Shown: in pieces, positions 8,253 to 9,790 of the stretch
Position numbering within the stretch: position 1 is the stretch's first letter
Layout: each line of letters starts with the position of its first letter
Source of the DNA: Desulfobacterales bacterium
GTDB taxonomy: Bacteria; Desulfobacterota; Desulfobacteria; Desulfobacterales; C00003060
Assembly (NCBI GenBank): GCA_013375375.1
Contig: JABXJX010000012.1
Span: 1-33,965 of the forward strand
DNA length: 33,965 bases
Reading direction: 5' to 3'
The notes under the pieces: model-generated
The model's database searches: none
Seen by the model: the letters and a program-made list of their open reading frames with translations, nothing else
Told to the model about the DNA's origin: nothing
Position numbers and translations under genes: made by a program

Positions 8253-8367
8253 TATCCTTCCCGCCATTGGAACAATTAAGCTTTATTTGGCATATTTCCC
8301 CTTGACAAGGCGAAAGAATATCAATAGCGTTATTTTTCTTTAATTCTTTAATAACCTGAAGTCAAAA

Positions 8368-8880
8368 ATGAATATATCATCACCTCCGATTGTGTCGATT
8401 GTAGGAAAATCAGAAGCTGGGAAAACAACCCTTGTAGAAAGGCTCGTCTCTGAACTGAGAGTGAGAGGGTATTGCATTGGCACGATCAAGCATAATGTGC
8501 ATGGTTTTGATATTGACCATGAAGGCAAGGACAGCTGGCGTCACAAACAGGCAGGCGCCCATACAGTGGCTGTCTCATCGTCCAAGAAGGTGGCTGTTGT
8601 CAAGGATGTTGAGACTGAAGAGACCCTTGACGGTCTCGCCTCAAAATACTTCCAGGACGTGGACATCATCTTGACCGAGGGATACAAGAAAAAACAGAGG
8701 CCTAAGATAGAGGTTTTTCGGGGCCAGGTACATGAGACGCCCCTCTGTAAAGGGGACAAGCACCTGATGGTCTTTGTCTCTGATATTGACCTTGATATGG
8801 GTGTGCCTCGTTTTGAGCTGAACGATATAAAAGGCTTGGGCGACTTTGTGGAAAAAAGGTTTTTGATGAAGTCATTCTAA
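8368..8880 (+). CDS. mobB: Molybdopterin-guanine dinucleotide biosynthesis adapter MobB
   Basis: A 170-residue P-loop GTPase that assists MobA in making the guanine-dinucleotide form of the cofactor. Walker A is GKSEAGKTTL (residues about 13-22). The family signature IKHNVHGFDIDHEGKDSWRHKQAGA follows, then ILTEGYKK and the C-terminal FVSDIDL. The stop codon TAA directly abuts the left end of a MITE-like element. It is transcribed towards mobA. A TTGACA lies at 8302-8307 but no good -10 follows at normal spacing. Confidence 0.96.
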   Translation: MNISSPPIVSIVGKSEAGKTTLVERLVSELRVRGYCIGTIKHNVHGFDIDHEGKDSWRHKQAGAHTVAVSSSKKVAVVKDVETEETLDGLASKYFQDVDIILTEGYKKKQRPKIEVFRGQVHETPLCKGDKHLMVFVSDIDLDMGVPRFELNDIKGLGDFVEKRFLMKSF

Positions 8881-9075
8881 CAGGCTGTTGAAAAACTCTT
8901 TTTTTCGCTCCGATTGCCCATTTTTGATCCGCCTGAGGCGGACTAAGTTCGCTCCGCTAAAATTGCAAAACTCGGCATACGCCTCAAACAGTTGCAATTT
9001 TTGACGCTTCGCTTCACTAAGAAACTTTCGCAAAAACGGTCAAAGTCGCTCATTCAAGAATTTTTCAACAGCTTG
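8881..9075. mobile_element. MITE-like element between mobB and mobA (195 bp)
   Basis: The element has 18-bp terminal inverted repeats (8881-8898 and 9058-9075) identical at 16 of 18 positions, starting CAGGCTGTTGAAAAA, flanked by a direct duplication CTAA (8877-8880 and 9076-9079). It holds an internal 10-bp hairpin (AAAATTGCAA 8959-8968 / TTGCAATTTT 8992-9001) and a palindrome CCGCCTGAGGCGG. No ORF inside. Removing it with one CTAA copy restores overlapping convergent stops for mobB and mobA. Non-autonomous miniature transposon is the simplest reading. Its hairpin plus T-rich tail may also terminate both genes. Confidence 0.72.
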
Positions 9076-9679
9076 CTAAGCCATCCCGTAACATCTTTTC
9101 AGAGGCGTAGAGGTCTTCCGGCGTGTTAATATTGAAAAAGGAAGCAAGGCCTGGGTCTACTTTTCTGAGCTGTGCTTCCGGGATTTCTTTGACCTTGACC
9201 TTTGGGAAGAACTTTAGGATCTTGGGATCTTGGTTTTTGAGCTGGTGCTCAATCGGTTTGATGCAGCGCTTTGAATAAATGGTGCACAAGGGCTGATTAC
9301 CCTTTTCTGTGACAGGCATGATTACATCCCACTTTGGCTCAAGCTCTTCCAAAAGAGCCATGATCAATTCTTTTTTCAAGAACGGCGTGTCGCAGGCCGT
9401 GATGAAAGCATGGGGCGCTGAGGCGTGAACCAGGCCCGCATGGATGCCGGTTAAGGAGCTGCGTATTGAAAAAAGATCTGTTACTATCGTCAAGTCTTGT
9501 GAGAGATATTGAAGAGGGTCATTCGTGACCAGCAAGACTTCATCAAAAAGTCCCTGAAAGGTGTTATAAAGCCGGTTTAGGATCGTGTGGCCACCTACGG
9601 AAAGCAAGGCCTTGTTCTTGCCTTCCATCCGTTTGTTCAACCCGCCCGACAGGATGATTCCCGAACAAGAATATTTCAC
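9065..9679 (-). CDS. mobA: Molybdenum cofactor guanylyltransferase MobA
   Basis: A 204-residue nucleotidyltransferase that adds GMP to molybdopterin. Seen: LSGGLNKRMEGKNKALL (the GTP-binding LxGGxxxRM...K loop), TDLFSIRSSLTGIHAGL, and ITACDTPFL with the metal-binding Asp, followed by FFNINTPEDL near the C-terminus. The last two residues (Ser-Cys) and the TGA stop are encoded inside the terminal repeat of the neighbouring MITE-like element; before insertion the protein would have ended DGLE. Convergent with mobB, whose product is its partner. Confidence 0.94.
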   Translation of the reverse strand: MKYSCSGIILSGGLNKRMEGKNKALLSVGGHTILNRLYNTFQGLFDEVLLVTNDPLQYLSQDLTIVTDLFSIRSSLTGIHAGLVHASAPHAFITACDTPFLKKELIMALLEELEPKWDVIMPVTEKGNQPLCTIYSKRCIKPIEHQLKNQDPKILKFFPKVKVKEIPEAQLRKVDPGLASFFNINTPEDLYASEKMLRDGLASC

Positions 9680-9790
9680 GGCATTAAAAAGACTCCTGAT
9701 TTATTATATATCTCACAGTTTCTACAATATATTAAAAGTATAGTACTTTGTTTTGTAGATTGCAAATGCAAGTTTGCAGTGGAATTGTCC

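Follow-up and report, generated by a model that had tools for sequence, protein, structure and literature searches.

The closest described relatives of the element analysed here are the MITEs derived from IS5 insertion sequences, for which the available text of PMC10359306 gives YTAR as the conserved duplication motif. The element, which occupies 195 bp of a 33,965-nt stretch of DNA from a Desulfobacterales bacterium (the window), resembles them in being non-coding and multi-copy, in its 4-base YTAR duplication and in its 18-base end, which equals one end of two IS5_4-type elements (L128 and L195), a likeness judged at the termini. It differs from them in its interior, a conserved hairpin common to elements with other types of ends. 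The IS1182 elements are also close: the ends of a sister type (AGACTGTCGAAAAA, type B) equal those of L228 and L229, two IS1182 elements from the same genus, the first of which is flanked on both sides by CAACG. However, the ends of the window element (type A) read CTGTT instead of CTGTC and have a YTAR flank, and L130, an IS1182 element that shares the type A ends, has TTGA flanks. The TIMEs, Tn3-derived miniature elements, are likewise non-autonomous, with mosaic forms and a conserved core that folds as a hairpin, although in the portion of PMC4133298 available they have Tn3-type ends of 38 bp and duplications of 5–6 bp, as opposed to the IS5/IS1182-type ends found here. ERIC, RUP, BOX and other intergenic hairpin repeats are also dispersed, intergenic and nested in one another, as described in the accessible part of PMC10969869; the likeness is one of description, and the window element had no Rfam match (positions 8300–9700, gathering thresholds). 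A search of the literature outside subscription papers found no report of the hairpin family to which the element belongs, and none with its end, its core or their complements given as letters. The insertion is one more case of a known kind, and the family is the less ordinary part.

The insertion between mobB and mobA

The window contains mobB (8368–8880, forward strand, 170 aa; an ORF matching Pfam PF03205, E 1.1e-45) and, convergent to it, mobA (9065–9679, reverse strand, 204 aa; PF12804, E 2.4e-33). We scanned the window for 18-base inverted ends agreeing in at least 16 positions, 60–400 bp apart and with identical 4-base flanks, and obtained a single pair, at 8881–9075; the same rule gave no pairs in any of 20 first-order-Markov randomised windows. 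The left terminal inverted repeat, CAGGCTGTTGAAAAACTC (8881–8898, forward strand), and the right one, CAAGCTGTTGAAAAATTC in reverse complement (9058–9075, reverse strand, from the end scan), match at 16 of 18 positions, and the 23-base arms are 87% identical. The flank scan placed the CTAA duplications, of the same YTAR type as in other copies, at 8877–8880 and 9076–9079, and the ORF list contained no frame of 80 aa or longer inside the 195 bp. The termini, the duplications and the non-coding unit put forward in the original prediction were therefore all recovered at these positions.

The whole element (8881–9075; repeat, copy and fold analyses) folds into one long imperfect hairpin, with a folding energy z of −2.9 against shuffles for the window copy and of −6.4 for a second copy from the same genome (C96). 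At its apex (8959–9001), an inverted repeat also found in the fold is formed by the arms AAAATTGCAA (8959–8968) and TTGCAATTTT (8992–9001), and family alignments locate here the conserved core AACTCGGCATACGCCTCAAACAGTT (8970–8994, forward strand), whose family form is AACTCGGGCTAACGCCCTCAAACAGTT. An alignment of the type A copies showed that the palindrome TCCGCCTGAGGCGGA (8928–8942) is particular to the window copy within this type; the other three read AAGTTT at this position and are 10 bases shorter. A distant blastn search with the element against plasmid and phage collections gave no match.

When the flanks were joined in silico with one CTAA, mobB was unchanged at 170 aa and mobA became a gene of 202 aa ending in MLRDGLE, the two genes overlapping by 9 nt, just as had been predicted. 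MobA probably ended in DGLE before the insertion, to judge from these joined letters. The present protein has 204 aa and ends in MLRDGLASC, so that the final Glu is replaced by Ala-Ser-Cys; the last three codons and the stop fall within the element in part or in full, the TGA stop codon being supplied by its end and the Ala codon straddling the duplication and the element. The prediction had attributed to the terminus a Ser-Cys and a stop, which is correct, but had missed that the Ala is also new. Both genes remain unbroken, as it also held, and the stop codon of mobB (TAA, 8878–8880) lies inside the left duplication. Because the element landed where two convergent genes overlap, mobB kept its stop and mobA exchanged only its last residue for three. 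The tails of MobA differ in relatives (MLADDLG in G017, MLTDDAG in G007, MLTDAFL in G001 and MLAEDLR in G021), indicating that this tail is free to vary, and its change in the window was probably harmless. Taken singly, the insertion is ordinary: a MITE landed, probably without harm, where two convergent genes meet.

We found a mobB match in 47 of 60 genomes (own included), and examined 29 mobB loci from relatives. A convergent mobB/mobA pair occurred in six of these loci, and the window element was at none of the six junctions. The aligned ends of the two genes were 10 nt apart in both G007 and G001, 51 in G012, 160 in G021, 292 in G017 and 567 in G003. In G007 and G001 the junction is empty, with overlapping gene ends, and the inserts in G017 (ca. 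290 nt), G003 (ca. 570 nt) and G021 (ca. 160 nt) are unlike the window element. These distances and inserts indicate that close relatives lack any insert at this junction and that other relatives have acquired different ones. By eye, the insert of G017 (locus L060) looks like a long hairpin, and that of G021 (L069) resembles a repeat starting GGGGTCAAGGGGAGCTAT that is also the left arm of L249–L251 in G007; the junction of G003 is locus L068.

The position of the element raises the question of whether it persists because it terminates transcription, or blocks antisense transcription, between convergent overlapping genes. A long hairpin between convergent stops would suit such a role, as would the presence of other, unlike inserts at the same junction in three relatives. 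Nevertheless, a scan of 8700–9250 gave no intrinsic-terminator-like site (a GC stem followed by a T run) and no promoter-like site, G007 and G001 manage without any insert, and copies elsewhere do not have this context, judging from ORF positions. Neutral tolerance explains the position, and we consider a retained terminator or barrier very improbable.

Copies in the host genome and the enzyme that moved them

The host genome (2.18 Mb in 197 contigs, 87% complete) gave 42 matches in a DNA search with the element. Eight were near full length, including the window's own; the remainder comprised six matches of 51–95 bp, 24 that covered only a 24-base stretch of another repeat, and four short single-end matches. 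Four of the eight are of type A (C32, which is the window copy, C96, C42 and C38), with 88–91% identity to the window copy, and four of type B (C178, C194, C34 and C15), with 81%. The type A copies are flanked by CTAA/CTAA (window), CTAG/CTAG (C96), TTAGG/TTAGG (C38) and, unequally, TTAA/ATAG (C42). Those of type B start with AGACTGTCGAAAAACTC and sit at CAACG or similar sequences, with equal 5-base flanks in two of the four. The 195-bp unit between mobB and mobA is thus a MITE and a real insertion. The original prediction had named it so and had proposed a search for further copies and for empty junctions; besides its ends, duplications and lack of coding capacity, the element has dispersed copies, near full length as well as partial, and its site is empty in relatives. 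The prediction had overlooked the hairpin fold, the additional palindrome of this copy, the sister types, the connection to IS5-type transposases and the conserved core.

Two solitary type A ends, each just behind a gene and lacking a partner, were seen on contig C189 (L022 near 450–475 and L023 near 390–420) and are probable relics. The 24 matches to a 24-base stretch correspond to a multi-copy repeat starting GAGACCTTTGCATAACCCC, located at contig ends (e.g., L024–L028), and this repeat probably represents an insertion sequence at which the assembly broke.

We then considered the exact end CAGGCTGTTGAAAAACTC in GTDB contigs, where it occurs in at least 119 stretches, with at least 124 exact ends; the figures that follow are from the matches listed. 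Its hosts, by their titles, belong to many bacterial phyla, with one archaeon among them. YTAR precedes 79 of the 124 ends, and an inverted partner (up to 4 mismatches, within 4 kb) was found for 61, 37 of these pairs having identical 4-base flanks. Among the matches listed, 58 of the 61 pairs span less than 300 bp and contain no transposase, and the other three (1352, 1359 and 1595 bp) contain one. The two shorter of these, L128 (1352 bp, from a Deltaproteobacteria MAG, flanks TTAA/CTAA) and L195 (1359 bp, from an Ignavibacteria MAG, flanks CTAG/CTAG), code for transposases that match NCBIfam IS5_4 above cut-off and are 57% identical to each other; one end of each is identical to CAGGCTGTTGAAAAACTC (18/18) and the other carries 2 and 4 mismatches, respectively. 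A 1323-bp pair, L151, was rejected as an insertion sequence, its long ORF reading by eye like a host enoyl-reductase, and it counts among the short pairs when the nearest partner is taken.

Two insertion sequences of 1.35 kb, each with an IS5-type transposase and YTAR flanks, are thus bounded by the exact 18-base terminus, and on these grounds mobilisation in trans by an IS5-type enzyme is the mechanism that best accounts for the insertion. An IS5-type insertion sequence would supply the transposase in trans, and the enzyme would bind both 18-base ends, cut the element out of its donor site and join it, with a 4-base stagger, at the CTAA that closes mobB, generating the CTAA duplications. We hold it to be very probable that the insertion arose in this way, as a MITE trans-mobilised by an IS5-type transposase with a 4-base stagger at CTAA. 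The single hairpin formed by the element could also bring to mind a site like the attC of integrons, or a REP/RAYT-like sequence that a Y1 transposase moves as a single strand, and some flanks (C38, C178) are by eye like the motif GTTRRRY. However, duplicated 4-base flanks, IS-type 18-base ends and the existence of elements with the same ends and a DDE transposase are all features of DDE cut-and-paste, which makes either of these origins highly improbable.

The IS5-type mechanism has points against it as well. One of the four type A copies (C42) has unequal flanks, and the assignment to an enzyme family is uncertain because the third transposase-bearing pair, L130 (1595 bp, from a Nitrospirae MAG), which has TTGA on both sides and an NCBIfam IS1182 transposase, carries the same ends as the window element. 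A search of the host genome, in its 197 contigs and at 87% completeness, for the domains DDE_Tnp_1 (PF01609) and DUF772 (PF05598) found no transposase, and a close relative of the L128 transposase (E ≤ 1e-60) was present in one of 194 genomes of the order, as a partial match near a contig end; a transposase of this family would be expected in the host, although a MITE does not require one there. The mobilising enzyme was nonetheless probably of the IS5 type, and its parent insertion sequence may have been lost or may be missing from the fragmented assembly.

A hairpin family with different ends

A DNA match to the element was found in 20 of the 60 genomes (own included). We took 80 family matches with their flanks and read them oriented on the core; those listed share a middle, AACTCGGGCTAACGCCCTCAAACAGTT, with pairing arms outside the core. 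Classes of ends, A to E, were defined after reading the sequences, and 53 of 95 loci could be classed (4 in A, 6 in B, of which two are IS1182 elements, 30 in C, 11 in D and 2 in E), while 42 fell in no class, a number of them truncated at contig ends. Of 30 type C elements (GAAGCTGTTTCAAAACCC), 24 are flanked by TA on either side, with no 3-base match at that offset, and among 15 type D elements (ATGRTTTCGTAAAAAGTC) 7 have 8-base flanks with at least 7 of 8 positions in agreement, the best-flank pairing being picked where a choice existed. Types A, B and C can be aligned end to end. In an alignment of 47 elements, restricted to those of up to 215 bp without a weak core score (and so without the type A copy C96, which was included in the separate A/B/C alignment) and with seven of the 47 extracted by hand, the consensus sequences of classes A–D were 62–82% identical among themselves, and those of E and G were 46–68% identical to the others. 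The apex was nearly invariant in A–E. In type E, GGCC/GGCC takes the place of the GGGC/GCCC of the other types, a paired change visible in the letters themselves, and in every class the folding energies were lower than those of shuffled sequences (30 shuffles each, median z −2.7 to −5.5).

Of 395 genomes from the phylum, seven contained the core pattern with up to 2 mismatches; six of these, the host's included, belong to this order, and reversed-pattern controls gave none. Type D ends were abundant in the order, where 51 of 60 genomes had them (703 sites in G040, none in controls), and are therefore not limited to core-bearing elements. With these 703 sites, G040 has a very heavy MITE load. 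In G018, two type D elements of ca. 128 bp that lack the core (L266, L267) are nested in an arm of type C elements.

What the family shows are homologous non-coding hairpins from a single genus and order whose end types differ in target-site signature: YTAR for A, CAACG for B, TA for C and 8 bases for D. One scaffold under at least four such types suggests that the ends, and hence the enzyme, may change while the core stays. Extending rather than contradicting trans-mobilisation by an IS5-type enzyme, a lineage of ca. 185-bp hairpins would have kept its core and arms while mutation or recombination re-tailored the terminal 15–20 bases to an IS5-type YTAR enzyme, an IS1182-type CAACG enzyme, a TA-target enzyme and an 8-bp-target enzyme, the core being retained for the element (e.g., as an RNA or protein-binding hairpin) or for the host. 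This is a possibility to be taken seriously, although we would lean against it. The end-to-end alignment of A, B and C, the shared apex, the differing flanks and one hybrid element speak for it. On the other hand, the classes were drawn up with the sequences already in view and left 42 of 95 loci unplaced; the TA may be a constant component of the type C end itself; and among all sequences gathered no autonomous carrier of type C, D or E ends larger than 600 bp, and no transposase for these ends, was found. Moreover, the ends of A, B and C can also be aligned with one another, so gradual drift with a single broad-range transposase is possible.

The hybrid was seen once. Among the matches listed in the 60 genomes, the exact string TCCGCCTGAGGCGGACTAAG occurs only in the window and in element L244 of G015 (contig C106). 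The left arm of L244 is closer to a type C copy (43/49 identities, vs. 32/51 to the window) and its right arm to the window (45/60, vs. 36/60 to the same C copy); this comparison of arms is all that the hybrid claim draws on, the left side of L244 being too short in the A/B/C alignment. Additionally, a 24-base stretch around the palindrome TCCGCCTGAGGCGGA is found in a third repeat, with ends GAGACCTTTGCATAACC. The shared palindrome, the hybrid and the third repeat raise the reading of exchangeable modules, which a lone hybrid, taken from a draft assembly, supports only thinly. We put forward only tentatively, and with doubt, a lineage of mobile hairpins whose functional apical core, AACTCGGSCTAACGSCCTCAAACAGTT, is retained while recombination and mutation exchange the ends recognised by transposases. 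The window element would be one state of this lineage, whose single non-coding scaffold would have been moved successively by transposases of IS5 type, of IS1182 type and of at least two further kinds that differ in their target-site rules. If this were true, non-coding parasites would not be tied to one parent insertion sequence. The family makes it testable whether a MITE stays the fixed remnant of a single insertion sequence or is able to change its mobilising enzyme, a matter usually only assumed, and its invariant, partly unpaired apex asks for an RNA or protein partner. In several elements of G007, G015 and G001 (L256, L258–L261, L244 and L313), a second, larger loop (GTAGCACGGAGTGCCTCTGTCCAAGGCGTCAGCCGCAACCCATGCGCTA or similar) is inserted at one point of the core.
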